Below, one piece after another: positions 10,277-49,061 of a stretch of DNA of 64,000 nt. Each line of letters begins with the position of its first letter. The stretch's first letter is position 1. The notes under the pieces are model-generated. The model worked only from the letters and a program-made list of their open reading frames with translations, made no database searches and was not told where the DNA came from. This DNA comes from Candidatus Eiseniibacteriota bacterium (GTDB lineage Bacteria > Orphanbacterota > Orphanbacteria > Orphanbacterales > Orphanbacteraceae), in NCBI GenBank assembly GCA_029262235.1, contig JAJCZU010000002.1:434001-498000 (forward strand), in the 5' to 3' direction. The position numbers and the translations under genes are program-made.

Positions 10277-10932
10277 GGCGCCCGCGTTTCGCTCCGGCGC
10301 TGTTCGTGCTCCTGCTGGTTACCGGGAGCACGCTGGCTGACGAGACACCTGATCCCGCGGTCCAGGTGGCGCGCAGCGGAGACCGTGTGGTGGCGCGTTT
10401 CGGCTTCGCGCGGGTGCCTTCCGAAACGACCTGGCAGTCGATTCTCGGGGGCATTCCGGCCGCGATCGATATCACGGCCCGCGTGCGGAGCGGGCGGCGG
10501 GGTGACATCGTGATGCGGGAGGAGCGCTACCGCATCGCGTACGACCTGTGGGAAGAGCGATTCGACGTGGCGTGGAGCCAGGACCGCTCCCGGTCGTTCG
10601 AGACCGCGCAGGACCTGCGTCATTTCTTCGCGCGCATCGCAGAGTGGGACCTGCTCCCCCTTCGCGATCTGAAGCCCTCGGTTCCGTATCGCGTCGAAGT
10701 GGCGATGATCGAGCATCGTATCGCGCCCGAGAAGGATGAGGAGTGGGGAAGGCGCATCGCGGGGGACCCCGTTACGCAGAACAGAGACCGCGAGCAGACG
10801 AGCGAAGTATCGTTCAGCCTGCAGGGCCTGATTCGTTTTTTCTACGGCGATGTCGCGAACGAGGGACGCCCCCGTGTGGTTGCCACCACGTTTACGAAAG
10901 AGGAACTGACCGTTGTCACGGATTCGCCATAA
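10264..10932 (+). CDS. DUF4390-like exported protein
   Basis: 222 residues, GTG start overlapping the Omp85 gene by 13 bases (TTG 10273 is an alternative). A signal peptide (FAPALFVLLLVTGSTLA) is followed by a beta-rich domain with the pattern GGIPAAIDITARVRSG and YDLWEERFDVAW, the recognisable core of DUF4390 proteins. In proteobacteria DUF4390 is found next to NtrY, and the same holds here: the kinase starts inside this gene. A diverged second copy lies at 42.7-43.4 kb and shares the GIP and W/QER patterns. The role is unknown; a periplasmic input to the kinase is an inference. Confidence 0.72.
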   Translation: MDILRRPRFAPALFVLLLVTGSTLADETPDPAVQVARSGDRVVARFGFARVPSETTWQSILGGIPAAIDITARVRSGRRGDIVMREERYRIAYDLWEERFDVAWSQDRSRSFETAQDLRHFFARIAEWDLLPLRDLKPSVPYRVEVAMIEHRIAPEKDEEWGRRIAGDPVTQNRDREQTSEVSFSLQGLIRFFYGDVANEGRPRVVATTFTKEELTVVTDSP

Positions 10933-12328
10933 AATCGTGGCGCTTGCGCTCGTGCTGACGCTGCTTCCCGCGGTGCCGCTCTCGATCCTGACGGCGAAGC
11001 TGCTCGATCGGAGTGCGCGGCTCCAGACGGATCCCGCGCTGGTCGACGCGCTCGACGCGGGAATCGAGGAGACGCGGGACGCGCTGGCGCGTGAAAAAGC
11101 AGCGCTGCTGACGCGTATCGAACACGGGGAGCGGGGCGCCGGCGACAGAACGTGGTCATGGAGCGCGGGCGCGGCGATTCCTGATGACGTGCCGCCGGAC
11201 GTCCGCACATGGGCTGCGCGCGGCGACGAAACGGGGGTTCCCGAACGTGTCGGCGCGCTTCTGGCCGTGAAGATGCCGGCGACGCGCGACGGAACGCGTA
11301 CCGTGCATGCGGCGCCGCTTCCCCCGGAGCTCGTCCGGCGTGCCGAACGGATCGCGGAGGGCCGCGCGTTCCTGAACGTGCTGCAGACGGAACGCGGGCG
11401 TGTCCGGCGCGGCTTCTTTCTGCCGTTCATCCTCGCCTACGCGACGCTCGCGATCCTCGCCATCGTGACGGGCAGCGTACTTGCCGGGCGTCTGGCGCGA
11501 CCGCTCGAAGTGCTCGCCGAAAGCGCCGAGAGAACTTCGCTCGGAAGCACGGATACCGAAGTCGCGCGTACGGACCGGGGGGAAGTAGGAGAGTTGCAGA
11601 CCGCGTTCAACCGCATGATTCGCAGGCTCGCGGCGCAGAAGGACGAACTGTCCCGGCTCGAGCGCCTGGCCGCCTGGCGCGAAATCGCACAGTCCCTCGC
11701 ACACGAGATCAAAAACCCGCTGACCCCGATTCAGCTTGCCGTGCAGGAGCTGCGGGACCGCTACCCGGGAAACGACGATCGCTACGGAGCACTGCTTTCG
11801 GATTGTGGTGAAATCGTCGACGAGGAAGTGGCGGCGCTGCGCCGGCTCGTTCGGGAGTTTTCAGAATTCGCGCGCCTGCCCGAGCCGGTCAGAAAGCAGG
11901 GCGATCCAGCCGAGTTGCTCCGCGAACTCGGAAAGCTTTATGGCGAAAGAGTTACGGTTGCCGCGCAGGATGAACGTCTCGCATGGTTCGATCGCGAAGA
12001 GATGAAGCGGGCGCTGATCAATCTCGTGGACAACGGTCTGGCGGCCTGCGAATCGGCGGGGTGCGATCCGGTCGTCAATCTGCGAGCCGCAGAAGAGCGG
12101 GGAATGCTCGTCATCACGGTCGAGGATCACGGCACGGGCCTTTCCGACGACAAGCGCGCCAAGATCTTCGAGCCGCACTTCACGACGAAGACCGACGGCA
12201 TGGGACTCGGCCTTCCGATCGTGCAGGGCATCGTATACGGGCACGGAGGAACGATCGAAGTGGAATCGGAGGAGGGTGTGGGAACTACGTTCCGCCTGCT
12301 CCTCCCGACAGGAGAGGAAACGGGATGA
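10913..12328 (+). CDS. NtrY-like membrane sensor histidine kinase
   Basis: 471 residues from TTG 10913 with GAGG in front. A transmembrane helix near residues 7-27, a short periplasmic region, a second helix near 170-190, HAMP, then HisKA with LAHEIKNPLTPIQLAV (phospho-acceptor His about 264) and HATPase (NLVDNGLAA, EDHGTGLSDD, GMGLGLPIVQGI). The HEIKNPLTPI form is the NtrY/NtrB hallmark. Its partner is the sigma-54 activator that begins in its own stop codon (ATGA overlap). The signal sensed is unknown; the flanking barrel and DUF4390 protein make an envelope cue likely. Confidence 0.9.
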   Translation: MSRIRHKIVALALVLTLLPAVPLSILTAKLLDRSARLQTDPALVDALDAGIEETRDALAREKAALLTRIEHGERGAGDRTWSWSAGAAIPDDVPPDVRTWAARGDETGVPERVGALLAVKMPATRDGTRTVHAAPLPPELVRRAERIAEGRAFLNVLQTERGRVRRGFFLPFILAYATLAILAIVTGSVLAGRLARPLEVLAESAERTSLGSTDTEVARTDRGEVGELQTAFNRMIRRLAAQKDELSRLERLAAWREIAQSLAHEIKNPLTPIQLAVQELRDRYPGNDDRYGALLSDCGEIVDEEVAALRRLVREFSEFARLPEPVRKQGDPAELLRELGKLYGERVTVAAQDERLAWFDREEMKRALINLVDNGLAACESAGCDPVVNLRAAEERGMLVITVEDHGTGLSDDKRAKIFEPHFTTKTDGMGLGLPIVQGIVYGHGGTIEVESEEGVGTTFRLLLPTGEETG

Positions 12329-13737
12329 AGCGCATTCTGGTTGTCGACGACGAGAAGAACATTCGAAAAACCGTCTCCATGATTCTGAATGCGGAGGGGT
12401 GGGATGCGGCCGAAGCCGCTTCGGGCGAGGAGGCCGTGCAGGTCGCGACCGGCGACTCGTTCCCGGTGGTGCTGCTCGACGTGCGTCTGCCGGGCATGGA
12501 CGGCCTGCAGACGCTCGAAAAGCTCCGCGAACAGAACCCGGACGTTGCCGTCATCATGATGTCGGGGCATGCCAGTGTTGCCGTGGCGGTCGAGGCGACG
12601 CGCAAGGGCGCGTACGACTTTCTCGAGAAGCCGCTTACGAAGGAGAAAGTACTGGTTGCTGTGCGGAACGCGGCACGATTTCGGGTTCTCGATCGCGAAG
12701 TCGGCGAGTTGCGACGGCGCGAGTCGGGACGCCGCACGATGATCGGCGACTCCTCTGCGATGCGGAAGATTCGCGAGACGATCGAACAGGTCGCGCCGAC
12801 GACAGCCCGCGTTCTGATCCTCGGCGAGTCGGGAACCGGCAAAGAACTCGTGGCGCGCGCGATTCACGAAGCGAGCGAGTGCGCATCGGGGCCGTTTGTC
12901 AAAGTGAACTGCGCGGCGATTCCGGAAGAGCTGATCGAAGGGGAACTGTTCGGCGCGGAGAAGGGCGCCTATACCGGAGCCGTCTCCGCCCGCGACGGCA
13001 AGTTCATGCAAGCCGACGGGGGCACGCTCTTTCTCGATGAAGTGGGCGACATGAGCCTGCGCGCCCAGGCGAAGGTGCTGCGCGCGCTCCAGGAGGGCGA
13101 GGTCGAGCGCGTGGGCGGCACGCGTACGATTCCGGTCACCGTGCGCGTTCTCGCCGCCACGAACAAGGATCTCGAAGCCGAAGTCAAGGCCGGTACGTTC
13201 CGCGAGGATCTCTTCTTTCGCCTGAACGTCGTTCCGCTTCATGTCGCCCCGCTCCGGGAGAGGCGCGACGACATTCCCGCGCTGATCGGCCACCTGGCGG
13301 AGACGTATCGTCTCGAGAACAATCGCGCGCCCGTCACGTTCGAAGAAAGCGCTGTCACGAAGCTGGTCGGCCACGCCTGGCCCGGCAATATTCGGGAGCT
13401 CGCGAACGTCGTCGAGCGTCTCGTGATTCTGACGCGCGGGGATCGAATTGGACTGGACGCGCTCGCCAACGCGGGCCTCGGCGGGGCGACCGGGGAGCCG
13501 GGTGCGGGCGGATCGGCGCGCGGCGCGCGCCCATTCGACCCGATGGAACTCGTGCGAACCGAAGGCGGTCTCGCCAACGCGCGCCGTGCATTCGAAACCG
13601 ACTGCATCCGTCATGCGCTGCGCGATGCGGGCGGCAATGTATCCGAAGCGGCGCGCGGCCTTCAGATCGATCGCACGAATCTGCACAAGAAGATCCAGAG
13701 TTACGGAATCGAACCGGCGGAAGAAGGGAAGGCGTGA
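12325..13737 (+). CDS. NtrX-like sigma-54 dependent response regulator (copy A)
   Basis: 470 residues. Receiver domain with phospho-acceptor Asp52 ([11 protein letters not shown]) and Lys in FLEKP; AAA+ domain with Walker A GESGTGKE (about 167-174), sigma-54 contact loop GAYTGA (about 214-219, a Tyr form of GAFTGA), Walker [12 protein letters not shown], and an Fis-type helix-turn-helix at the end ([20 protein letters not shown]). It is fully equipped to activate sigma-54 promoters. ATG 12325 overlaps the kinase stop, so the two are translationally coupled. Two candidate targets with sigma-54 promoters lie elsewhere in the window. Confidence 0.92.
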
Positions 13738-17452: not shown

Positions 17453-18616
17453 CTACTCGTAGACCATCCAGAGGGGGCCCGGGAAAAGAAAGGAAAGGCC
17501 GTCGCGCATCCGGTCGCGCCAGTTTTCCCAGTTATGACCGTCTCGTGATTCGACATACCGGACATCCATGCCGGTAGACTGCAACAGGGGAACCATGCTG
17601 CGGTTCTCGTAGATGAGCGATTCGTACATGCCGCAGCTGACGAACACTTTTTCCGCAATGGCGACCGGCTTCGCCCGGTACCTGTTTACGAATTCGACAA
17701 CCGGCTCGAATGCCGGTCCGCGCTGCTGCTCCCCGATGTCGGTGAATGCGAACGACCCCGACTGCAGAAGCAGCCGGCCGAACAGGTCGGGGTAGCGAAG
17801 CGCAGTCGAAAACGACGCGATCGCGCCGAAGCTCGCGCCCATGAGTCCGCGTCCCTCGGCCGTGCCGATCAAGGGGTAGCGCGACTCGAGGCGGGGGAGA
17901 AGTTCCTCCGCCAGGAATTCGTCGTGCGCGGGCATGGCGGCGTACTCGTTCAGCCGGTCGCGAGGATGTGTGAACGCCACGATCATTTCCGACACTTCCA
18001 GCCGATGAATCAGGTTGTCGAGAACCGTCTTCATGTTCGAAAAGTGCGTGTAGTCCCCGCCGTCCAGGACGATCAGAAGCGGGTAGCGTCGTGTGCGTCG
18101 AAAGCGCGCCGGCTTATAAAGCGAAACAGCATAATCGTGGCGAAGCGCGCGGCTTCGGAATCGCAGTTCCTCGATCGTTCCTTCGCGCGCCTCCGGGTCG
18201 TGTTCGGTCCAGTCCGGGCGTTCGTATCCGTAGCTCTGCAGCACGCTGTTGGCGCCGAACGGGTCGAGTGCCCGGTGCGGGTTCAACGGATCTTCGATCC
18301 ATCGTCCCTGTTCGCCGAGCTGCAGTTCGAACTTGTATTCCATCCGGGACTCGTCCGGAAGATCCAGCGTCAGATACCAGAGATCCGAATTCGCAACGCG
18401 GCGCAACGGCTGTGTCGACGGCAGGCCGAAGACGAAGTGACGCAGGGTCACGCCGTCGGCTTCTCCGTGGAATACGTAGGTCACCGAGCCCGGTTCAACG
18501 ATCGGAAACGTGTTCTCTTCGATGAACGCGTCAATCGCGGCCGCGTCCGGCGCTCCCTTTTCAATCCAGTGCTGCAGTGTCTCTCGTGCTGTCATCGTAT
18601 CCGTCACTGGTGTCAT
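17453..18616 (-). CDS. Enterochelin-esterase-like hydrolase with N-terminal E-set domain
   Basis: 387 residues. An N-terminal immunoglobulin-like/E-set domain (about 40-135: VTYVFHGEADGVTLRHFVFG, MEYKFELQLGEQGRWIEDPLNPH) precedes an alpha/beta-hydrolase domain with LIVLDGGDY, the nucleophile elbow GASFG (Ser about 262) and DGHNWENWRD with the catalytic His. This is the Fes/COG2382 layout, in which the E-set domain helps bind a trilactone or glycan-like ester. There is no signal peptide and no siderophore gene nearby. ATG overlaps the upstream S51-like gene by four bases. The true substrate is unknown. Confidence 0.83.
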   Translation of the reverse strand: MTPVTDTMTARETLQHWIEKGAPDAAAIDAFIEENTFPIVEPGSVTYVFHGEADGVTLRHFVFGLPSTQPLRRVANSDLWYLTLDLPDESRMEYKFELQLGEQGRWIEDPLNPHRALDPFGANSVLQSYGYERPDWTEHDPEAREGTIEELRFRSRALRHDYAVSLYKPARFRRTRRYPLLIVLDGGDYTHFSNMKTVLDNLIHRLEVSEMIVAFTHPRDRLNEYAAMPAHDEFLAEELLPRLESRYPLIGTAEGRGLMGASFGAIASFSTALRYPDLFGRLLLQSGSFAFTDIGEQQRGPAFEPVVEFVNRYRAKPVAIAEKVFVSCGMYESLIYENRSMVPLLQSTGMDVRYVESRDGHNWENWRDRMRDGLSFLFPGPLWMVYE

Positions 18617-22088: not shown

Positions 22089-23306
22089 GTGAACGTGCTG
22101 ATGATTTCGCCCGGCTACCCGCCCGAAATGGGGCTCTTCACGCGCGGACTCGCGGAAGTGGGCGCACGCGTGATCGGTCTCGGGGACCAGCCCGAAGGGA
22201 ATCTGGACCCGGATGTGAAGCGACACCTTTCGGCCTATATTCATGTCGGCAGTTTCCAGCGTACGGATGAAATCGTGCAGCAGGTGGCGACGTTTCATCG
22301 AAACGTGCGCATCGATCGGGTGGAATCGCTCTGGGAACCGCAGATGATTCTCGCCGCGCGGATTCGCGAAGCCCTCGGGCTTCCGGGCATGACGGTGGAA
22401 GAGACGATTCCGTTTCGCGACAAAGAGATCATGAAGCAGGTGCTCGACAAGGCCGGCGTACGCACGCCGCATCACAAACGATGCACGAGTGTCGATCAGA
22501 TTTACGCCGCGGCCGAAGAAATCGGCTATCCGCTTATCGTGAAACCGATCGCGGGCGCAGGTTCCGCCGACACGTATCGCGTGGAGAATCGCGAAGAACT
22601 CGAACAGACGGCGAAGCTCGTGCGCCACGTCGACCAGGTCAGCGTCGAAGAGTTCATCGACGCCGAGGAGTATACGTTCGATACCGTATGCGCGGGCGGC
22701 GAGATTCTATTTCACAATCTCTGCTGGTATCGTCCGCGGCCGCTGGAGTCGCGTCTTGCGGAATGGATTTCGCAGCAGACGATCGCACTCCGCAATGTCG
22801 ACGCGCCGGAACTGGAGCCCGGGGTCAGGATGGGACTCGACGTCATGAAGGCCATGAACTTTCGCACCGGCTTCACGCATATGGAATGGTACAAGACCGC
22901 GAGCGGCGAGGCCGTGTTCGGCGAGATCGGCGCACGCTCCCCCGGGGGGCGTACGGTCGACCTCATGAACTACGCGAACGATTTCGATATCTTTACGGGA
23001 TGGGCCGAGGCCGTTTGCCACGGCCGCATTTCGCAGAAGATCGAGCGCAAATACAACGCGGCTTCGATCTTCAAACGCGCGCAGGGCGAGGGGCGCATTC
23101 AGCGCATCGAAGGCCTGTCGAAACTGCTGTCCGAATACGGCGAACACATTGTCGTGGTCGACCTGCTTCCGCTCGGCGCCGCGCGCAGAAACTGGAAGCA
23201 GACGTTGATCTCGGACGGCATGGTCATCGTCCGCCATCCCGATCTCGACGCGACCGTGGAGCTTGCCAATCGCGTCGCGGTTGACCTGCAGATCTATGCC
23301 GGCTGA
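22089..23306 (+). CDS. ATP-grasp ligase, paralogue 3 of 3
   Basis: 405 residues, GTG start behind AAGGAG. NVLMISPGYPPEMGLFTRGL, YPLIVKPIAGAGSADTYRV, VSVEEFIDAEEYTFDTV, THMEWYKTASGEAVFGEIGARSPGG and YANDFDIFTGWAEAVCHGRI follow the same order as paralogue 1, to which it is closer than to paralogue 2. The metal motif has Gly in place of Asn. It overlaps glgB by 11 bases, so ligase and branching enzyme are made from one message. Three similar ligases with different partners would allow stepwise addition of different units. Confidence 0.83.
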   Translation: MNVLMISPGYPPEMGLFTRGLAEVGARVIGLGDQPEGNLDPDVKRHLSAYIHVGSFQRTDEIVQQVATFHRNVRIDRVESLWEPQMILAARIREALGLPGMTVEETIPFRDKEIMKQVLDKAGVRTPHHKRCTSVDQIYAAAEEIGYPLIVKPIAGAGSADTYRVENREELEQTAKLVRHVDQVSVEEFIDAEEYTFDTVCAGGEILFHNLCWYRPRPLESRLAEWISQQTIALRNVDAPELEPGVRMGLDVMKAMNFRTGFTHMEWYKTASGEAVFGEIGARSPGGRTVDLMNYANDFDIFTGWAEAVCHGRISQKIERKYNAASIFKRAQGEGRIQRIEGLSKLLSEYGEHIVVVDLLPLGAARRNWKQTLISDGMVIVRHPDLDATVELANRVAVDLQIYAG

Positions 23307-25515
23307 AGGCGCAAAAGAACGCCCCGCGTTCGAGAACCTGCTCGAAGGTCGTCTTCGCGACCCGTTCCACTATCTCGGTCCGCATCCCGTTCTCGTCGAC
23401 TCCGTCGATCACATTCTCGTGCGCACGTTCCAGCCGCGCGCCGCGAAAGTGGCGCTCGTTCGCGGCAAGAAGCGTGAGCCCATGAAGCGTGTCGACGAAC
23501 GCGGCCTTTACGAGGTTGTCGTTCCGAAGCAGGCGAAACCGCTCTCCTACAAGTTCGCACTCATCGATAGAAACGACGCCGAAACCATCGTTCACGATCC
23601 CTACCGTTTCGATCCGGTCCTCACGGACTTCGATCTTCATTTGTTCGGGGAAGGGACGCATCGTGAGCTGTACCGCAAGTTCGGGGCCCACCATACCCGG
23701 CAGAAGAATGTCGCGGGCGTTTCGTTTGCGGTCTGGGCGCCGAATGCAACAGGCGTCAGCGTGGTCGGAAGCTTCAATCGCTGGGACGGACGCACGCACC
23801 CGATGAGACGACGGACCCACGGAGTCTGGGAGCTCTTCCTTCCCGCGATCGAAGCCGGAACGCTTTACAAATTCAGAATGCAGACTCACTACCGGGGAAT
23901 GATCGCCGACAAAGCGGATCCGTTCGGCCGTGCGATGGAAGTCAGGCCCGACACGGCTTCGATCGTGACGAAGAAGCAGGGGTACGCATGGAAGGATCGG
24001 TCGTGGATCAGCGCACGTGCGAAAGCGCAGGGCCTGGATCGTCCGATGTCGGTCTATGAAGTGCATCTCGGCTCCTGGCGTCGCAAGGGCGAAGAAGGCA
24101 CGTGGCTTACCTACGAGGAGATGGCGAACACGCTGATCCCCTACGTAAAGAAGCTCGGCTTTACGCATCTCCAGCTGCTCCCCATCTCCGAACATCCGTT
24201 CGACGGGTCGTGGGGATACCAGACCGTGGGGTACTTCGCGCCGACTTCGCGCTTCGGCGACCCGGACGACCTGCGCCGTTTCATCGACCGGGCGCACGCG
24301 GAGGGAATCGGGGTTCTTCTCGACTGGGTGCCCGCGCATTTTCCGAAGGACGGACACGGTCTCGGGTTCTTCGACGGCACGCATCTTTACGAACACGCCG
24401 ACCCGCGCAAGGGCTATCACCCCGACTGGAACACACTGATCTACAATTACGGTCGCCGGGAAGTGGCGGAGTTTCTGATCGCGAGCGCGCTCTACTGGCT
24501 CGACGAGTTTCACATCGACGGACTGCGCGTGGACGCGGTCGCTTCGATGCTCTACCTCGACTATTCGCGGGGCGAGGGGGAGTGGGTGCCGAACGAAGAC
24601 GGCGGGCGCGAAAACCGGGAAGCGGTCGCGTTTCTGCGCGAGTTCAACGAGGTCGTGCACGAGGCGTTTCCCGGCACGCTCACGTTTGCCGAAGAGTCGA
24701 CGGCGTGGCCCTATGTGACGAAACCGGTCTCTGAAGACGGACTCGGATTCGACTACAAATGGAACATGGGCTGGATGAACGACACGCTTTCCTACATGAA
24801 GACCGACCCGCTCTATCGAAGCCATGACGCGCGCAAGATCACGTTCTCTCTCGTGTACGCGTTCAGCGAGCGCTATCTGCTTCCGCTCTCGCACGATGAA
24901 GTCGTGCACGGCAAATGCTCTCTCCTCATGAAGATGCCGGGCGACTCGGCGCAGAGGCACGCGAACCTCAGGCTGCTGTACGCGCATCTGTTCGGACATC
25001 CCGGCAAGAAGCTGATGTTCATGGGGGGCGAGATCGCGCAGCGACGGGAGTGGGACCATGACGGCGCGCTCGAATGGGAACGCCTCGACGATCCGGAGAG
25101 CGCGGGGATTCATGCCTACGTGCGCGACCTGAATCGGATCTACGCGAAGGAAGAGGCGCTTCACGGGAACGATTTCGACCCGAGCGGTTTCGCGTGGATC
25201 GAACTCGAGTCCGAAGACCGCACGGTGTTCGTGTACGAACGCATCGCAAAAAACGGTGCGTCGCGTATCATCGTGGCACTTAACTTCACGCCCGTGCCGC
25301 GCCCCGCATTTCGAATCGGCGTTTCTGAGCCGGGCTCGTATACTCTCGCGATCTCGAGCGATCACAAGAAGTACGGAGGCACGCATGCCGGCATTTTCCG
25401 AACGCGGGAGTCCGAGGAGATCGCGTGGCACAATCGCGCGCATTCCATTGCCGTCGATCTGCCTCCGCTCACCGCGATTTTCATGAAGCGCGCCCCCGCG
25501 AAAGCCGATTCTTGA
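23296..25515 (+). CDS. glgB: 1,4-alpha-glucan branching enzyme
   Basis: 739 residues, close to the usual length for GlgB. Two N-terminal E-set/CBM48 units (about 10-110 and 140-230, with VSFAVWAPNATGVSVVGSFNRWDG), then a GH13 barrel with HLQLLPISEHPFDGSWGYQ, the catalytic Asp in GLRVDAVASMLY (about 413), the Glu in TFAEESTAW (about 466) and LSHDEVVHGK. It makes alpha-1,6 branches in glycogen. ATG 23296 lies inside the end of the upstream ATP-grasp gene. No glycogen synthase or phosphorylase gene is nearby, so its place in this locus is unusual. Confidence 0.95.
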   Translation: MPAEGAKERPAFENLLEGRLRDPFHYLGPHPVLVDSVDHILVRTFQPRAAKVALVRGKKREPMKRVDERGLYEVVVPKQAKPLSYKFALIDRNDAETIVHDPYRFDPVLTDFDLHLFGEGTHRELYRKFGAHHTRQKNVAGVSFAVWAPNATGVSVVGSFNRWDGRTHPMRRRTHGVWELFLPAIEAGTLYKFRMQTHYRGMIADKADPFGRAMEVRPDTASIVTKKQGYAWKDRSWISARAKAQGLDRPMSVYEVHLGSWRRKGEEGTWLTYEEMANTLIPYVKKLGFTHLQLLPISEHPFDGSWGYQTVGYFAPTSRFGDPDDLRRFIDRAHAEGIGVLLDWVPAHFPKDGHGLGFFDGTHLYEHADPRKGYHPDWNTLIYNYGRREVAEFLIASALYWLDEFHIDGLRVDAVASMLYLDYSRGEGEWVPNEDGGRENREAVAFLREFNEVVHEAFPGTLTFAEESTAWPYVTKPVSEDGLGFDYKWNMGWMNDTLSYMKTDPLYRSHDARKITFSLVYAFSERYLLPLSHDEVVHGKCSLLMKMPGDSAQRHANLRLLYAHLFGHPGKKLMFMGGEIAQRREWDHDGALEWERLDDPESAGIHAYVRDLNRIYAKEEALHGNDFDPSGFAWIELESEDRTVFVYERIAKNGASRIIVALNFTPVPRPAFRIGVSEPGSYTLAISSDHKKYGGTHAGIFRTRESEEIAWHNRAHSIAVDLPPLTAIFMKRAPAKADS

Positions 25516-38779: not shown

Positions 38780-40872
<2,093 letters not shown>

Positions 40873-40889: not shown

Positions 40890-41519
40890 GTGAAGCGAAA
40901 CGACGCGAACCGATTGAACGACAACAAGATCCAGGAACGGCTGGACCGCGAGTGGAACGGTTCCGTGCCGGGCCAGGGGCGGACAGAGGCCGGTGGCGGC
41001 GCAGATGAGAAGGTCGAGTCCTATCGACGCCTCTATGCCCTCCTGCACGATCTTGGAACGCCGCCTGTTCCCGCGGGCCTCGAGAACGCCGTCATGCGAC
41101 GCGTGATCGCGGCGGCCGGCGCGGCGCCCGTGCGTGTTCCGCTCTGGGTTCCGTTCGGTGTGGCTGCGGCCCTCGTCATTTCGACGGCGCTTTCGGTCTC
41201 TCTTTTCCGCGGGCTCGGTGTTCTGACCGGTCCCATTGCCGAAGCCGCGGTGGAAGGGCGCACCTCGCTGCTGCTTCTTCCGATCACGGTTCTGTCTGAA
41301 GTTCTCGGCGCCGCCGGCAAGGCGAGCGAATGGTTTTTGAATACGCTGGGGCAATGGAGTCATGCGGCTCATGCGCTTCTCGGAGTCTGCGAAACGGAGC
41401 CGGTTCGACTCTTTCTCGCGGCAACGCTGGTTTTCAACGCGCTGATTATTTTCTTCTGGGGCACCGGCCGCCGGTTCCTTCAGGCCAGGAAAGGGACATT
41501 CCATGGATTTATCGGTTAA
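40890..41519 (+). CDS. Probable membrane anti-sigma factor
   Basis: 209 residues, GTG behind AAAGGAGG. The N-terminal soluble part (NKIQERLDREWNG, VESYRRLYALLHDLGTPPVP) lacks the zinc-binding HC2 motif of many anti-sigma factors. Two hydrophobic segments follow: about 87-110 (PLWVPFGVAAALVISTALSVSLF) and 175-195 (FLAATLVFNALIIFFWG). Its position right after the ECF gene and the short cytoplasmic N-terminus argue for an anti-sigma factor, but sequence alone does not prove it. It overlaps the next gene by 17 bases. Confidence 0.6.
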   Translation: MKRNDANRLNDNKIQERLDREWNGSVPGQGRTEAGGGADEKVESYRRLYALLHDLGTPPVPAGLENAVMRRVIAAAGAAPVRVPLWVPFGVAAALVISTALSVSLFRGLGVLTGPIAEAAVEGRTSLLLLPITVLSEVLGAAGKASEWFLNTLGQWSHAAHALLGVCETEPVRLFLAATLVFNALIIFFWGTGRRFLQARKGTFHGFIG

Positions 41520-42687
41520 CACACCCCGGACCGGTCTCCTGCCCAGGACCTGGATGACGGGCATGCTGTCGCTTCTCCTGTTCGCCGGGTTCGCCACTGC
41601 AGTAAGCGCGGCCGACGGCCGTGATCTCGATTCGCTGCAGCGCGTCGTCGATTCGCTGCGCGAAATTGCGGAAGAACGAATGTACGAGAACGATGACGCG
41701 GAGTACGACACGCTGCTTCAGATCGAGCAGAAGTATGGTGGCGGCGCGATCAAGATCACGCATTCGCCCGACGACATCGTGCAGATGGGCGGCGACGTGA
41801 CCGTCGACGCTACGACCTCCGTGAGTGGCGATGCTGTGGCGCTCGGCGGCAACATGACCGTGCACGGCATCGTCAAGGGCGACGCGGTCGCGATCGGCGG
41901 CAGCCTGTATCTCGAACCCGGCTCGCGCGTCGAAGGGGATGCGGTTTCGATCGGGGGGCGCGTCCGGAAATCCGAAACCGCCTCGGTCGGGGGAGAGATC
42001 GTTTCGATCGGCCCCGGCATGGGAGCAATGCTCCCCTGGATCAAGGACACGGAGCGAAGCATGTCCCAGAGGATCGGAGGCGTGATCCGTTCGAGCTTCA
42101 TCGGCTACCTGCTCATATTCTTCCTGATTCTGATTTTCGTCGATCTCTTCGGCGGAGCGACGGACCGCGCCTGCACTTACGTGGCGAGTGACGTGGTCAA
42201 GGCGGGGCTGGCGGGCTTTCTTACGCTGCTGTTGACGCCGGTCATCATCGGTGTGCTCGCGGTTACGGTGATCGGTCTGCCCGTGATTCCGCTCTATCTG
42301 CTGGCCCTCGTCGTCGTGTTCTTCTGGGGCATGGTCGTGGTCTCGCTCGAGGCCGGCCGCGTCTGGGGGACGAGAGTGCTTCCGAGCGTTTCGCACGGGC
42401 GCTGGCTCGCGCTGCTCGGCGCGGTTCTGCTGACGCTTCCGAAGTATGCGGGCAAGCTGCTAGCCGCAATCGGGGGCCCGCTTCACATCGTGGGATGGTC
42501 GCTCAGCGTCGTCGGTTCCGTCATCCTGTTCGTCGCGATCTGTGTCGGAATCGGGAGCCTGGTGATGTCGAGGCTGGGACGCCGTTCGATGGACTGGAAT
42601 GATCTCGACAGCGGCGCAATCGATCCCGTGGACCCCGTCGATCCCGACGAGCCGGGAGACAGAAGCGGGGTTCCCGCAACCAGTTGA
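41503..42687 (+). CDS. Beta-helix (bactofilin-like repeat) integral membrane protein
   Basis: 394 residues. Signal or anchor segment, then a repeat of about 15-19 residues around GDAVALGGNMTVHGIVKGDAVAIGGSLYLEPGSRVEGDAVSIGG (about 95-160), the pattern of a polymer-forming beta-helix as in bactofilins. The C-terminal half has five hydrophobic helices (YLLIFFLILIFVDLF, FLTLLLTPVIIGVLAV, LALVVVFFWGMVVV and two more). The combined form is familiar in genes of ECF operons but unnamed. It ends in a DPVDPVDPDEP tail. It likely belongs to the sigma factor's regulatory or target unit. Confidence 0.7.
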   Translation: MDLSVNTPRTGLLPRTWMTGMLSLLLFAGFATAVSAADGRDLDSLQRVVDSLREIAEERMYENDDAEYDTLLQIEQKYGGGAIKITHSPDDIVQMGGDVTVDATTSVSGDAVALGGNMTVHGIVKGDAVAIGGSLYLEPGSRVEGDAVSIGGRVRKSETASVGGEIVSIGPGMGAMLPWIKDTERSMSQRIGGVIRSSFIGYLLIFFLILIFVDLFGGATDRACTYVASDVVKAGLAGFLTLLLTPVIIGVLAVTVIGLPVIPLYLLALVVVFFWGMVVVSLEAGRVWGTRVLPSVSHGRWLALLGAVLLTLPKYAGKLLAAIGGPLHIVGWSLSVVGSVILFVAICVGIGSLVMSRLGRRSMDWNDLDSGAIDPVDPVDPDEPGDRSGVPATS

Positions 42688-43365
42688 TCACTCCAGGGCC
42701 CCGGGGAGGAACCGGATGCTTTCCGCTTCCCAGGTTTCATCCCCGAGGCCCGCGAGCGATGCCACGAACCCGAACAGCTTTTCGGGAACGTCGAGCACCC
42801 CGTTCCCGTTTTCTTCTCCCGCATCCGAACCCGCGTCGTCTCCCGGAATCTTCCCGTCGAGAAAGTCTTCGATCTCCTGAATCTGCTGCAGATTGACGGA
42901 CGAGAGTCGTGCGCGGACCGCCACATAGTGGCGTGACGACCCGCGAAGTCCCGTGAGCGGCGCGAGTGGAACGCCGGTGCGCGCGAGCAGGCGCCGCATC
43001 ATTTCATCCTGATTCGACACGAATTCGCGGCGCCCGTCCTGCTGGATGACGTATCTCTCCTGCACCACATCGAACCGAACGCTCGCGGCGAACGTCACGG
43101 ACGCTTCCACTTTGTCGAACCATCCCGACCGCGCGCGGAACAGCGAGACTTCGTAGGTGACCGTCGTCGGAATGCCGCGGTGGATCGTGTCGAGTTTCTT
43201 GAAGTCGAGGGCGTCGTGCAGCGCGAAGTCGACGACGAGCCAGCCGTCGCGCGGCCGGAAGTCGTCGAACGTGATGCTCGCTTCCGCGCGCACGACCGCC
43301 GGAAGCGCAAGCATCAGAAATACGAGCCATGCTTTCACTCGCCATCTGTTCCGCGAAAGGGGCAA
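42688..43365 (-). CDS. DUF4390-like exported protein (copy B)
   Basis: 225 residues, TTG start; the codon after the Omp85 stop is only 20 bases away. Signal peptide (AWLVFLMLALPAVVRA), then IHRGIPTTVTYEVSLFRARSG and VRFDVVQERYVIQQDGRREF, the same pattern as the copy at 10.3 kb (GGIPAAIDITARVRSG and YDLWEERFDV). Its long C-terminal extension is acidic and poorly conserved. Convergent with the ECF operon with zero bases between the stops. Last gene of the minus-strand rlmN-NtrYX-Omp85-DUF4390 operon. Confidence 0.72.
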   Translation of the reverse strand: MPLSRNRWRVKAWLVFLMLALPAVVRAEASITFDDFRPRDGWLVVDFALHDALDFKKLDTIHRGIPTTVTYEVSLFRARSGWFDKVEASVTFAASVRFDVVQERYVIQQDGRREFVSNQDEMMRRLLARTGVPLAPLTGLRGSSRHYVAVRARLSSVNLQQIQEIEDFLDGKIPGDDAGSDAGEENGNGVLDVPEKLFGFVASLAGLGDETWEAESIRFLPGALE

Positions 43366-43385: not shown

Positions 43386-44831
43386 TTAGAACATGCGTTG
43401 AATGCGTAGCGTAACCAGGAGATCCGCGTCGCTCTGATCCGCTCTGCGGGCGAAGTCGACACGAACGGCCCCGTCGTCGACCTCGAGCCCGATTCCCATG
43501 TCCGACTCCACGTCGAACGTGGTGCGCGCCGGCGTGCCCCAGGCGTCTCCCAGATCCGTGAAGAACGCGATCGCCATTTCGTCCCAGAGCGGCACGAGGT
43601 ACTCGATGTTCGCCACGACGAAACGCGTGCCGGTGAGCTCTTTGAACCGGTGGCCGCGCAACGTGCCGACGCCGCCGATATAGAACTGACGATAGAGAGG
43701 GGCCACACCGTCGATCGCGCCGCCCATGACCCGAAGCCGCAGCGCGGACCAGCCGCCGAGCTGATAGATTTCGCGCAGTTCCGCCGTGCCGCGCGCGTAA
43801 TCGAAATCTCCTCCGAGCTCGTGCCCCGCATACTCGCCTTCGAGCCAGAGAGCGGTGCCCGATGTCGGACGCGCTTTTCGATTGCGGAAGTCGAGCGCGA
43901 CCGAACCTTCGACCTGCCGTCGCTCGCCTTCCACGCCGGCACTGTCGGCGAACAGGTTCGGGCGGAAGTCTTTGGCGTTCCCGAACAGCGACCAGTTCGC
44001 GTTGCGACCGGCGGGCGAAGACTCGACGTCCCGGTAACGAACGCTGACCTCATGGTCGTTGCTTCGGAGCGCGAGTCCTGTAGCGAAGCCGCGATCGAGT
44101 GTGTAGTCGCGGAAGTCTTCGTGCAGGAAGAGGGCTGCGGCAGAGTTCTCGTCTGCGGAGAGAGTCCAGGTGTCATGACTGACCGTGCGATCGTAGCCTG
44201 TCGCCGTAAGGAAGAGGCCGGCCGGACGGAAGAGAGGGATATCCGCGCGGGCCTTCCATGACCAGCGTTCCTGCGCGGGCGCATACCCCTGGGTCCACGA
44301 GAAGCCACCCGGATTGCGCCGCCCCTGTTCGATCGCGATCGTCAGATCCGTTCGCAGACCTTCGACCCGGTTGTACTCGAACCCGAGTGCGGTGGTGCGG
44401 TCATGCCTGGAATGCTTTTCGAACAGCTTGATTGCGCGCGAGTCGATTTGCAGGTCATAGACTGCGGTCTCGTGATATTCGAAAGAGACGTTCTCCTGCT
44501 CCTGCCAGTCCTCGTCGTCGCGCGTCTTGAAGAGGATTCGAAATTCGTAATCGCCGTCGTCGAGCTCGGCTCTTCGCGTCCATCGTTCGCCGTCGAAACG
44601 CATCGGCCATTCCACCGTTCGTCCGTCGAACCGGCCCGACACGACCGCCTCGTCCGCGCGATCGTACGCAAAATGAAAGACGACACGCCCTTCTTCGAAG
44701 CGGACCTCGACCTGTTTCGAGTGGTCGCCGGCATCGAGCGAATCATCAGCAGCAGGGTGAGCGAAGGCCGCGGTCGCGCACAGGCACAGCGCGGCGGACA
44801 CGAGGATCAGGGAAATCAATGGGAATCGCAC
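43386..44831 (-). CDS. Omp85-type barrel with an N-terminal E-set (AMPK/CBM48-like) domain
   Basis: 481 residues from GTG 44831, behind GGAGA. Signal peptide (LISLILVSAALCLCATAAFA), then residues about 35-125 with VVFHFAYDRADEAVVSGRFDG, WPMRFDGERWTRRAELDDGDYEFRILF: the isoamylase-type E-set or AMPK glycogen-binding form. The rest is an Omp85 barrel with the lid-loop form VGTLRGHRFKELTG and a terminal RIQRMF. There is no POTRA, unlike the barrel at 8.9 kb. It may take a ligand at the periplasmic side through the E-set domain. A UUCG-capped hairpin precedes the gene. Confidence 0.72.
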   Translation of the reverse strand: MRFPLISLILVSAALCLCATAAFAHPAADDSLDAGDHSKQVEVRFEEGRVVFHFAYDRADEAVVSGRFDGRTVEWPMRFDGERWTRRAELDDGDYEFRILFKTRDDEDWQEQENVSFEYHETAVYDLQIDSRAIKLFEKHSRHDRTTALGFEYNRVEGLRTDLTIAIEQGRRNPGGFSWTQGYAPAQERWSWKARADIPLFRPAGLFLTATGYDRTVSHDTWTLSADENSAAALFLHEDFRDYTLDRGFATGLALRSNDHEVSVRYRDVESSPAGRNANWSLFGNAKDFRPNLFADSAGVEGERRQVEGSVALDFRNRKARPTSGTALWLEGEYAGHELGGDFDYARGTAELREIYQLGGWSALRLRVMGGAIDGVAPLYRQFYIGGVGTLRGHRFKELTGTRFVVANIEYLVPLWDEMAIAFFTDLGDAWGTPARTTFDVESDMGIGLEVDDGAVRVDFARRADQSDADLLVTLRIQRMF

Positions 44832-44911: not shown

Positions 44912-44988
44912 CCGTTTCTGCTGGAATCGCACGGTTCGCCGGTGTCGATTCGACGCGCCCGCGTGTCGTTTCGACCATCCGCTTCCGC

Positions 44989-46422
44989 TCAATTCTTCTC
45001 TTTCGCCTGGATTCCGTAGCGCTTCATCTTGCGGTGCAGGTTCGCACGGTCCGTGTCCAGGGCGCGCGCCGTCTCCGCGACGTTCCCCCCGTGCTTTCGG
45101 AGCGTCGCTTCGATCAGCTCGATTTCGAAACCCTCAACCCGCTCGCGAAAGGAGCGAGCGCCCGTGTCCGGCGATCCCGGCGACTGCGGCGTCTGCGGTG
45201 TCTGCGGCGCGCCCTTCGTCTGCGGCGCCGTGGCGCCGCCGGTGTGTGCCGCTCCCGATCGCGCAGTCACGAGGACTTCATGCACTTCGCCTGCGCCGAT
45301 CGTGTCGCGCCGGCTCATGATCTGCAGGCGTTCCACGACATTCCGGAGCTCCCGGATGTTGCCCGGCCAGTCGTGACTCTCGAGCCGCGCGATCGCATCC
45401 GGAGAAAACGGCTTCGCGAGCCGCCCGCTCTCTTCCGAGAACCGTCGTTCGAAGTGAAGGACGAGCGCGGCGATGTCCTCAGTCCTGCTGCGAAGCGGCG
45501 GCACATCGATCGGAACGACGGCGATTCGATAGTAGAGGTCTTCACGAAAGCGGCCGGCCGCGATTTCGTCCGTCAGCACTTTGTTGGTGGCCGCGAGAAC
45601 GCGCACATCGAACGCGATCGTCTTTTTTCCGCCCACGCGTTCCAGTTCGTTCGTCTCGAGCACGCGCAGGAGTTTGGCCTGGGTTTCGAGCGACATGTCT
45701 CCGATTTCATCGAGCAGAAGCGTGCCCCGGTCGGCCTGTTCGATCTTCCCGATGCGCTGCTGCGAAGCCCCGGTGAAGGCCCCCTTCTCGTGGCCGAACA
45801 GTTCGCTCTCGATCAGATCTTTCGGAATGGCCGCGCAGTTGACTTTGATGAACGGTGCCCGCCCGCGCGGACTCTCCTCGTGGATGGCGCGCGCCACGAG
45901 TTCCTTCCCCGTGCCGTTCTCGCCCGTGATCAGGACGCGGGCGGGAGAGGGGGCGGCGTACGCGATCTCCTCGCGCAGCTTTCGCATGGCAGCGGAGTTC
46001 CCGATCATTTCGCGTGCGACGGAAGCCGCGCGACGAAGAGCCGCGTTCTCCCTTTCCAGCGCGCCTACGCGGAGAGCATTGCGAAGCGTAAGCAGCAGTC
46101 GTTCGGGGTCGAGCGGTTTCTCTAAAAAGTCGAACGCGCCCACGCGCGTGGCGCGCACCGCCATGTCGATCGTGGCATGTCCCGACATCACGATCGCGGC
46201 GGGGAAGTTGCCGGCGCCGAGCGACTCGAGGAACGAGACTCCGTCCATGCCGGGAAGCTGGACGTCGAGGAAGAACGCATCCGGCGCGTTTTCCTTCAGG
46301 ATCGCGGCGCCGTCTTCGGCCGAGCCGGCGACGTCCACGTCGTACCCCTCGTCCTCGAGAAGCCCCTGCAGCATCTTCCGTATGTTTTCTTCATCGTCGA
46401 TTACCAGGATTCGTCCGGGCAT
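44989..46422 (-). CDS. NtrX-like sigma-54 dependent response regulator (copy B)
   Basis: 477 residues from ATG 46422. Receiver with Asp53 (FLDVQLPGMDG), AAA+ with Walker A GENGTGKE, the canonical GAFTGA loop, LLLDEIGDMS, and a C-terminal Fis-type helix-turn-helix (NVAETARALDTDRANLHRKM). The linker before the DNA-binding domain has a Pro-Gln repeat (TPQTPQTPQ, about 402-411), encoded by three copies of a 9-base unit. It pairs with the NtrY-like kinase upstream (19-base gap). All residues needed for ATP hydrolysis are present. Confidence 0.92.
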   Translation of the reverse strand: MPGRILVIDDEENIRKMLQGLLEDEGYDVDVAGSAEDGAAILKENAPDAFFLDVQLPGMDGVSFLESLGAGNFPAAIVMSGHATIDMAVRATRVGAFDFLEKPLDPERLLLTLRNALRVGALERENAALRRAASVAREMIGNSAAMRKLREEIAYAAPSPARVLITGENGTGKELVARAIHEESPRGRAPFIKVNCAAIPKDLIESELFGHEKGAFTGASQQRIGKIEQADRGTLLLDEIGDMSLETQAKLLRVLETNELERVGGKKTIAFDVRVLAATNKVLTDEIAAGRFREDLYYRIAVVPIDVPPLRSRTEDIAALVLHFERRFSEESGRLAKPFSPDAIARLESHDWPGNIRELRNVVERLQIMSRRDTIGAGEVHEVLVTARSGAAHTGGATAPQTKGAPQTPQTPQSPGSPDTGARSFRERVEGFEIELIEATLRKHGGNVAETARALDTDRANLHRKMKRYGIQAKEKN

Positions 46423-46441: not shown

Positions 46442-47992
46442 TCAGGCGAGCGGCAGTTCGATTCGAAAGACCGCGCCGAAGCCGTCTTCTTCCAATAGCG
46501 CGATGTCACCGTCGAGATCATGCACGATTCGTTCCACAAGGGGAAGTCCGAGGCCGGAGCCCGTCGATTTGGTTGTGAAGTATGGCGAGAAGATCTGCTT
46601 CCGCTGGTCGCCGTGCACGCCGGGCCCGCTGTCCGCGATGCGCAGGAACGCACGCTCACCGCGGGCGCGCCCTTCGCTGGCGCGCCCTGTCTCGACAGTG
46701 AATGTCCCCGTGCCGTTCATGGCCTCCCGCCCGTTCTTTACGAGGTTGCCGATCGCGCGCCGCAACAGGTCGCGGTCCCCCGACACCGCGGGCAGAGCGG
46801 CGTCCAGATCCCACTGCAGCGCAATGCTCGACCCCTCGAGATAGAGCGGGATGGTCGACCGCAGCAGTTCGTTGAGATCCAGCGCTTCGCGCCGGGGTTC
46901 GGGGAGCCGGGCGAACTGCGAAAACTCGTCGGCGAGCGCATTCAGGCTGTGCACTTCTTCCAGTATCGAAGCGAGCGATTCGCGGGCGGGCTCCCGGTCG
47001 TTTTCGGGAAGCGAGTCGACACGCTTCTGAATGCGATGGATCGCGAGCGTGATCGGGGTGAGCGGATTTTTGATTTCGTGCGCGATGCGCCGTGCCGCCG
47101 TCGCCCATGTCGCCACGCGTTCGGCGCGCGCGAGTCGGTCGCGGCTCTCGTGCAGCGTGCGTGTCATATCGTTGAAGTTCGCAATGAGAACGCCGAGCTC
47201 GTCCCCGGCCACTTCGCGAAGGCGCACGTCGAAGTCGCCCATCCGCACGCGCTTCGTCGCCGCAACGAGATTCTGAATCGGGCGCGACAGCGATCGGCTC
47301 AGCGCGCGGGAAACGAACACGGCGAGAAGCCCCGCGAGGAGAACGATCCCGATCGTCTGAATCAGCAGGCGGCCCTTTTCGTACTGCTTGAACACGCCGA
47401 GTTGCCGGTAGAATTCGTAGCCCCGCACGATTCGCTCGTAGCGGCCGCGAAACGTCTCGGGAATCGGGAAACGCACGGCCGCGATCCATCGCCCGCCGCC
47501 GGGGATCGTTCGCACATAAAGAGTGCGGTCCTCGTCGAACGCCGCGCGCTCCAGATTGCCCGCGATGAGTGTGGGGAGAGGGGGCAGCTCCCCGTTATCC
47601 GTCTGGTAGGAGAGTACGGTCTCCGTTTCCGGGCTCGGCCCGGCATCTTCCCGCTGGATCAGGACGAAATCGGGCTGGATCACGCCGCGGGCGCGCGACT
47701 CGCTGGTCAGCACCGCCATCGCTTCGTCCGGCACGCGGTGCGGGTTCTCGCCTGCCCATTCGAAAAATGCGTCCATCACCGCGGCATTCGCCGCCTCGCG
47801 CTCGGCCACCGCGTCGCGCAGAATTTCGACCGAGGCCTCGAGCGACTGTGCCACGCCCGGATTCTCCCAGCGCTCGATCGTCTGTCCGAGGCGTCGCATC
47901 TGGGAAGTCATGAGAACGAGGGAGGGAACGAGCGCCAGCAATAGAAAGAGGATCAGCAGTTTCCGGTCGAAGGGGAGTCGGCGCCAGAACAA
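46442..47992 (-). CDS. NtrY-like membrane sensor histidine kinase (copy B)
   Basis: 516 residues, TTG 47992, starting 3 bases after the rlmN stop. Transmembrane helix about 11-30, a periplasmic region to about 205, second helix about 210-228, HAMP, then HisKA with RIAHEIKNPLTPITLAI (His about 305) and HATPase (GNLVKNGREAMNG, DSGPGVHGDQR, GSGLGLPLVERIV). It is closest in layout to the kinase at 10.9 kb, and again is next to an Omp85-DUF4390 pair. It should phosphorylate the regulator that follows. Confidence 0.9.
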   Translation of the reverse strand: MFWRRLPFDRKLLILFLLLALVPSLVLMTSQMRRLGQTIERWENPGVAQSLEASVEILRDAVAEREAANAAVMDAFFEWAGENPHRVPDEAMAVLTSESRARGVIQPDFVLIQREDAGPSPETETVLSYQTDNGELPPLPTLIAGNLERAAFDEDRTLYVRTIPGGGRWIAAVRFPIPETFRGRYERIVRGYEFYRQLGVFKQYEKGRLLIQTIGIVLLAGLLAVFVSRALSRSLSRPIQNLVAATKRVRMGDFDVRLREVAGDELGVLIANFNDMTRTLHESRDRLARAERVATWATAARRIAHEIKNPLTPITLAIHRIQKRVDSLPENDREPARESLASILEEVHSLNALADEFSQFARLPEPRREALDLNELLRSTIPLYLEGSSIALQWDLDAALPAVSGDRDLLRRAIGNLVKNGREAMNGTGTFTVETGRASEGRARGERAFLRIADSGPGVHGDQRKQIFSPYFTTKSTGSGLGLPLVERIVHDLDGDIALLEEDGFGAVFRIELPLA

Positions 47993-47995
47993 CCG

Positions 47996-49027
47996 TTACT
48001 TCCTCGTCTCGTTCTGATAGCGGATTTGAAGCTGCCCGCACGCGGCGTCGATTTCGCGTCCGGCGCTGCGCCGCACGGTGACCGTAAGCTCGCGCGACAG
48101 CGCCTTGGCGAAGGCGCTCACGCGCGCTTCGGGCGGCGCCTCGAACGGGGTGCCTTCGACCGGATTGAACGGGATCAGGTTCACCTGGCACCGGATCGGC
48201 GCGAGCCGCTTGATGAGAAGCGCGGCATCACGATCCGAATCGTTGTAGCCCTTGAGAAGGGGGTATTCGAACGTGACGCGATCGCCGTTCGCCTGTGCGT
48301 AGTCGCGCGCCGCCTGCAGCAGCTCCGTTAGCGGGAACTTGTCGTTGATCGGCATGAGGCGTGAGCGCATCGTGTCGTCGGCCGACGTCAGGGAGATTGC
48401 GAGGCGCACGCCGAGATACTCGCCCGAAAGACGTTGGATGAGCGGCACGAGTCCCACGGTCGAAACCGTAATCCGTTTCGGCGCGATCGCGAATCCGTCG
48501 GGATGCGTGAGCACGCGGATACTCTTCACGACGTTGCGATAATTCGCGAGCGGCTCTCCCATTCCCATATAGACGATGCGTTTCGGCTTCGTTTCCATCG
48601 CGAGAATCTGTCCGACGATTTCGCCCGCCTGCAGCGACCGCTTGAACCCCCCGCGCGCCGTGGCGCAGAACTTGCAGTCATACCGGCAGCCGGCCTGCGA
48701 GGAAACGCACGCCGTAACACCGTCGGCCTGCGCGATCCGGACGCTTTCGATCGATGTCCCGTCCTCCATGCGATAGAGCAGCTTCTGCGACTGGTCCTCG
48801 CCCGCTCGGCTCGTCGTCATGTTTTCGGGAAAGAAGATGGCGAGGTCGTCGGGAAGCGAGGCGCGGAGATCCGCAGGAAGGTTCGTCATCTCTTCGAACG
48901 AACGGGCGCCGTGCTTGTGCACCCATTGGAAAATCTGGTCGGCCCTGTACCGCGGGAGTCCGCGCTTCGTTACAATCGATTCGATTTCGTCGGGCAGCAG
49001 CCCCAGGATGTTCGGTTTTCGCAGCAT
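47996..49027 (-). CDS. rlmN: 23S rRNA/tRNA adenine-C2 methyltransferase RlmN
   Basis: 343 residues from ATG 49027 (ATG 49057 lies upstream of the likely transcript start). Radical-SAM motif CRYDCKFCATA (C-x3-C-x2-C), GMGEPLANYRNVVKSIRVL, ISLTSADDTMRSRLMPIN, and the conserved C-terminal Cys in DAACGQL that carries the methyl intermediate. It methylates A2503 of 23S rRNA and A37 in some tRNAs. It opens the minus-strand operon with the kinase, regulator, barrel and DUF4390 gene; the kinase follows 3 bases later. Confidence 0.95.
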   Translation of the reverse strand: MLRKPNILGLLPDEIESIVTKRGLPRYRADQIFQWVHKHGARSFEEMTNLPADLRASLPDDLAIFFPENMTTSRAGEDQSQKLLYRMEDGTSIESVRIAQADGVTACVSSQAGCRYDCKFCATARGGFKRSLQAGEIVGQILAMETKPKRIVYMGMGEPLANYRNVVKSIRVLTHPDGFAIAPKRITVSTVGLVPLIQRLSGEYLGVRLAISLTSADDTMRSRLMPINDKFPLTELLQAARDYAQANGDRVTFEYPLLKGYNDSDRDAALLIKRLAPIRCQVNLIPFNPVEGTPFEAPPEARVSAFAKALSRELTVTVRRSAGREIDAACGQLQIRYQNETRK

Positions 49028-49055
49028 GCAGATCCGGCCTTTCGTGCTTTGCTGC

Positions 49056-49061
49056 ATTGTA
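49056..49061 (-). promoter_or_regulatory. -10 box of the rlmN operon
   Basis: TACAAT on the minus strand (five of six), about 30 bases before the ATG. The -35 is not evident. Confidence 0.4.

Follow-up and report, generated by a model that had tools for sequence, protein, structure and literature searches.

Omp85 proteins are the builders of outer membranes, and a central part in that work is ascribed to their periplasmic POTRA arms. The earlier note on this stretch of DNA had treated POTRA domains as the near-universal partner of the Omp85 barrel. Barrels without them are less exceptional than that, since Heinz and Lithgow (2014) distinguished ten Omp85 subfamilies that include the POTRA-less WD40, patatin-like, Metallo and noNterm classes (PMC4104836); the abstract of a later paper describes the superfamily to which PlpD belongs as characterised by one or more POTRA domains (PMC11116518). 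Like the protein described here, the POTRA-less classes carry a different N-terminal domain or none at all and are scattered in a manner resembling horizontal transfer. In the parts of the 2014 survey considered here, by contrast, no class is described with an E-set/CBM48 or a bactofilin-like domain, and linkage to NtrYX and DUF4390 goes unmentioned (PMC4104836).

The second system of relevance is the NtrYX family of two-component systems. Genetic evidence from Bordetella identifies the DUF4390 protein PlrP as a third component of this family, which restrains the phosphatase activity of the NtrY-type kinase, likely via its periplasmic domain (PMC13001219). PlrP and PlrSR, an NtrYX subset, share with our locus a DUF4390 gene adjacent to NtrY and NtrX genes, but the Bordetella cluster (rsmB-plrP-plrS-plrR-trkA-trkH) contains no Omp85 gene, and our NtrX carries a sigma-54 AAA domain (PMC13001219). 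The portions of this work considered here describe a periplasmic third component but no outer-membrane signal (PMC13001219). In R. sphaeroides, NtrYX controls envelope assembly genes (PMC7240162). Our search of the literature, mostly of papers outside subscription, returned no description of an E-set-Omp85 protein, no paper that joins Omp85 to a bactofilin or a glycogen-binding domain, and none on DUF5686; searches of PHROGs and plasmids were uninformative.

The window, that is the whole 64,000-nucleotide stretch analysed, encodes a protein that consists of a probable signal peptide, an E-set domain and an Omp85 barrel and has no POTRA (Table 1). The open reading frame lies exactly where the earlier note had placed it, and its architecture is solid. 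A POTRA hidden upstream was considered and rejected: the frame opens at an ATG at 44978, only ~11 nucleotides past the stop of the upstream NtrX gene, which leaves no space for such a domain.

Table 1. Features of the E-set-Omp85 locus, its paralogous operon and further E-set genes, in window positions.
Feature	Position	Strand	Remarks and basis
E-set-Omp85 gene	43386..44831	-	481 aa; GTG start at signal peptide, 44831
Probable signal peptide, residues 1-24 (...ATAAFA)	44760..44831	-	Read from sequence
AMPK1_CBM/CBM48-like E-set, residues ~40-129, all-beta in model	44445..44714	-	Pfam of orthologues, profiles, shuffles, AlphaFold
Omp85 barrel, residues ~144-481, 16 predicted strands	43389..44402	-	Pfam, AlphaFold, fold match
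Lid-loop (L6) motif GTLRGH, residues 389-394	43650..43667	-	Sequence
Inner-wall FxDxG motif (FTDLG), residues 424-428	43548..43562	-	Sequence
DUF4390 (PlrP-like) periplasmic protein gene	42688..43365	-	PF14334 4e-17; PMC13001219
NtrX-like sigma-54 response regulator	44989..46420	-	ORF listed to 46659; start placed near 46420 on the basis of the receiver domain
NtrY-like sensor histidine kinase (HAMP, HisKA, HATPase)	46442..47992	-	Domain scan
RlmN-like protein, conserved at cluster head	47996..49057	-	Named from sequence reading
Solenoid (polymer-forming-like) protein, hydrophobic C-terminal half	41503..42687	+	Repeat part matches N-domain of barrel relatives
Likely anti-sigma factor	40890..41519	+	Position and sequence; no Pfam match
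ECF sigma factor	40192..40872	+	Domain scan
Paralogous-cluster Omp85 with ordinary POTRA (internal control)	8900..10276	+	Pfam, profile search
Paralogous-cluster DUF4390 protein	10264..10932	+	PF14334 1.9e-10
Paralogous-cluster NtrY-like kinase	10913..12328	+	Domain scan
Paralogous-cluster NtrX-like regulator	12321..13737	+	Start approximate; ORF listed from 11983
GlgB branching enzyme with CBM48	23263..25515	+	
Esterase with possible N-terminal E-set	17453..18616	-	15.6 bits

The C-terminal part is a genuine Omp85 barrel, as proposed earlier. Pfam PF01103 matches it at E = 1e-19 (71.6 bits against a cut-off of 24), and the AlphaFold model built from a 42-row alignment (pLDDT 87.9, pTM 0.80) places 16 long strands after the E-set. 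The nearest solved folds to the whole model in a PDB fold search are BamA and TamA, which share with the window protein the 16-strand barrel, the lid-loop and the FxDxG motif but carry the POTRA domains that it lacks. It scores far under the NCBIfam equivalog cut-offs for both families (44 of 297 bits for BamA, 27 of 625 for TamA), and further Omp85 proteins are encoded in longer open frames elsewhere in the genome. Both the lid-loop arginine and FTDLG are present in the window protein, and neither motif is universal among its relatives: FxDxG is kept in most aligned rows and the lid-loop arginine in 6/7 orthologues. The RGH motif singled out in the earlier note is thus real in this protein (LRGH) but not conserved, being LRAH, MRAH or MPAY in relatives. 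The arginine, usually conserved in Omp85 proteins, is replaced by proline or threonine in three E-set barrels (MPAY in L013, LTAR in L118 and LPGY in L113; L labels denote our loci). Barrel relatives match both Omp85 and DUF5686 (PF18939; 8.4e-12 in L106, over the cut-off), whereas the window orthologues match the latter weakly (3/7, best 0.019). DUF5686 proteins generally carry a carboxypeptidase-regulatory-like N-domain and are not known to have an AMPK-type E-set.

Scanned alone against Pfam, the window protein gives no significant E-set match (CBM_26 at 0.017 only). Its orthologues, present in 7/7 genomes of the phylum searched, are more telling: AMPK1_CBM matches four of the seven (best 5.1e-7) and CBM_48 one (4.2e-6). 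In hhalign comparisons, the orthologue E-set profile aligns with the E-sets of independent E-set-Omp85 proteins at 98.2% probability (E = 5.8e-14) and with POTRAs of the type found in the window's paralogue at 0.8%. The same POTRA profile readily retrieves BamA structures, which validates the control. Among solved structures, the E-set profiles come closest to the glycogen-binding domain of AMPK beta (1z0n), with 0.00063 for A3, which is the orthologue E-set profile, and 1.5e-14 for A4. With an HMM built from the independent E-sets, the window protein reaches 15.7 bits, against 11.9 for the best of 2000 shuffles of the N-domain; the HMM also retrieves the CBM48 of the window's GlgB (38.7 bits) and a region of the esterase (15.6 bits). 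The 42-row AlphaFold model shows residues ~40-129 as a beta sandwich of eight strands and no helix, a fold possibly aided by the clear E-set proteins in that alignment; with the 7 orthologues only, the barrel is poor (pLDDT 56) and the E-set region is already all-beta. Because barrels dominate the PDB fold matches of the full-length model, the E-set is placed by profiles and not by a fold match. Thus the structure prediction that the earlier note had called for returned an all-beta domain instead of the beta-alpha-alpha-beta-beta order of a POTRA, and orthologue Pfam matches, profile comparison, shuffles and AlphaFold agree on its central proposal, an AMPK/CBM48-like E-set at the usual place of POTRA. 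Elsewhere in the genome, a ParA/MinD-like ATPase, named from its sequence, ends in an AMPK1_CBM E-set (L149, G000:C4:1178851-1179069; 52.2 bits), an unusual pairing.

Relatives gathered by one scan of genome contigs and one search of 386 genomes place this design in a wider family. Barrels with the first-strand motif YNRVxG occur in KSB1, Calditrichota, Ignavibacteria, Zixibacteria and others, and their N-terminal domains vary. An E-set alone precedes the barrel in the window phylum and in L104, L123, L155, L160, L161 and L074 (L074 and L156 are apparently one genome); a bactofilin-like solenoid alone in L106, L110 and others; a solenoid with one E-set in L118; and two solenoid blocks with three E-sets in L113, with L158 similar. 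Bare barrels without any N-domain are found in L053, L057, L096, L145 and L146. AMPK1_CBM and Omp85 both exceed their Pfam cut-offs within one open reading frame in L104, L113, L118, L123, L074, L155, L158, L160 and L161. The scanned proteins of this kind come from three further GTDB phyla besides that of the window, and at least four bacterial phyla share the E-set-Omp85 design. Phylum-wide searches gave matches across the E-set range, only partly backed by the Pfam scan, in 3/5 genomes of the L104 phylum (in a fourth the sequence breaks off ahead of the domain), 5/8 of the L113/L118 phylum and 6/58 sampled genomes of the L123 phylum. L113, L158 and L159 each run from a bactofilin-like solenoid through three tandem E-sets to a barrel, which exceeds the Pfam cut-off in L113 and L158 and is a weak DUF5686 match only in L159. 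Bactofilin PF04519 is over its cut-off in L113, and most other Bactofilin scores are under it. In a quick barrel tree the N-domain labels are strongly clustered, with open forks and long branches that make E-set gains and losses uncountable. Together, these architectures suggest that POTRA, E-set, solenoid or nothing are alternative periplasmic arms on such barrels.

The gene neighbourhood links the barrel to a signalling system. Throughout the phylum the genes run RlmN-NtrY-NtrX-Omp85-DUF4390 and, on contigs of sufficient length, face solenoid protein-anti-sigma-ECF sigma-enolase; the window locus holds the NtrY kinase, the NtrX regulator and the DUF4390 gene together, and its solenoid protein has no Pfam match of its own. 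E-set barrels of other phyla lie amid much the same genes (L127, L129, L130), and in L128 NtrY and NtrX accompany the E-set barrel on a contig that ends before any DUF4390 is visible. NtrX lies within 3.5 kb at 8/8 readable E-set loci (5/5 lineages), usually accompanied by NtrY and DUF4390/PlrP, compared with 4/10 bare and 1/25 solenoid-only loci. Between E-set and solenoid-only lineages the difference gives a Fisher p = 4e-5, a statistic that ignores relatedness and includes several solenoid loci with short flanks. We rejected the E-set as the defining feature of the locus. Another lineage has the same barrel without an N-domain in the same gene order (L145, L146; the anti-sigma gene is unscored there), which makes the E-set dispensable within the family. 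The window itself contains a second operon on the forward strand (8900-13737), in which a POTRA-Omp85 has its own DUF4390, NtrY-like and NtrX-like genes, that is the module with an ordinary arm.

These observations lead us to propose, tentatively, that the protein is an accessory POTRA-less Omp85 with an E-set arm, and that an NtrYX-PlrP envelope-control locus encodes it as its arm in the outer membrane. The barrel would occupy the outer membrane and its E-set the periplasm, where the E-set would mainly dock a partner protein, the first candidate being the DUF4390/PlrP-like product of the next gene. The state of outer-membrane assembly would then be relayed to the periplasmic part of NtrY and alter the phosphorylation of NtrX; the barrel may at the same time retain an accessory insertion activity. 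The architecture, the fusion of AMPK1_CBM and Omp85 in independent lineages and the NtrX linkage all favour this proposal, as do the gene order that recurs within the phylum and around the bare barrels, the paralogous operon, the role of PlrP as third component of NtrYX (PMC13001219) and the control of envelope genes by NtrYX (PMC7240162). Against it, we infer the contact of Omp85 with PlrP or NtrY from co-localisation, and the barrel could be a mere target gene of NtrX. The bare barrels of L145 and L146 show that the linkage can do without the E-set, L057 and L096 have NtrX while we found neither DUF4390 nor NtrY in their vicinity, and Pfam detects no PDC sensor domain in the window's NtrY. 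A bolder form of the proposal, which we regard as somewhat unlikely, is a new class of envelope sensor in which an outer-membrane Omp85 is coupled via E-set and PlrP-like protein to NtrYX, with POTRA, E-set, tandem E-sets and bactofilin-like solenoid exchangeable across phyla.

The best-surviving alternative, itself unlikely, is an accessory assembly factor: the barrel would insert a subset of outer-membrane proteins or lipids, the E-set would take substrate or chaperone by beta-augmentation as a POTRA does, and NtrYX would only regulate it. The retained Omp85 hallmarks (16 strands, FxDxG and the frequent lid-loop arginine), the fold matches to BamA and TamA and the POTRA at the same place in the paralogous Omp85 are in line with such a role. 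Yet the E-set barrels of L013, L113 and L118 lack the arginine, no conserved substrate gene lies nearby, and the genome has its further, longer-framed Omp85 proteins.

The E-set and the barrel of the earlier interpretation stood; its suggestion that the barrel recognises or exports a glycan found no support. We take Trp100 and Trp133 to be the binding platform of AMPK beta, a cytosolic eukaryotic kinase subunit. In our alignment these positions are occupied by Arg71 and Trp109 in the window protein, which hence keeps one of the two tryptophans. Both are kept in 3/7 orthologues (2/5 genera; L012, L014 and L015) and neither in L011 and L013; among distant relatives the first is present in 7/7 aligned E-sets and the second in most. 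An E-set that binds alpha-glucan or another periplasmic polysaccharide, with a barrel that exports or senses it, is improbable here. Tandem-E-set relatives with mostly intact tryptophans and AMPK1_CBM matches as strong as 1e-43 speak for it, as do GlgB in the same window and, in the genome, an amylase-like and apparently secreted ORF that contains four AMPK1_CBM domains in tandem (L148, G000:C4:519117-520619). But GlgB is 18 kb off, the conserved neighbourhood NtrY-NtrX-Omp85-DUF4390 consists of signalling genes and contains no gene for glycan synthesis or export, and the E-set is dispensable. Judged by these residues, glycan binding by the window protein is unsupported, and in other phyla, where E-sets mostly keep the tryptophans, it may occur; binding may be either ancestral and lost in the window protein, or never the point.

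Very doubtful is a trans-envelope tether, in which solenoid and E-set modules would fasten the outer membrane to a polymer of the periplasm or inner membrane, the solenoid in the window phylum residing in the neighbouring membrane protein. Solenoids are fused to the barrel in many relatives, together with E-sets in L113, L118 and L158, the Bactofilin match of L113 is significant and the solenoid gene is conserved beside the barrel; however, solenoid-only barrels mostly lie in other neighbourhoods, most Bactofilin scores are under the cut-off, and polymerisation is putative. Hardly credible, finally, is that the E-set call over-reads a low-complexity or unrelated N-domain, which the weak Pfam result for the window protein alone would allow and which the agreement of the four lines of evidence above largely refutes.

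Rather, we return to envelope control. Recurring in at least four phyla and always beside NtrX where the locus is readable, the E-set-Omp85 protein probably has a part in the way these bacteria build their outer membrane or keep watch over it. A recurrent E-set-armed family tied to an envelope-regulating two-component system means that the Omp85 barrel pairs with quite different periplasmic modules, and it makes the E-set-Omp85 protein a candidate outer-membrane input for NtrYX signalling.
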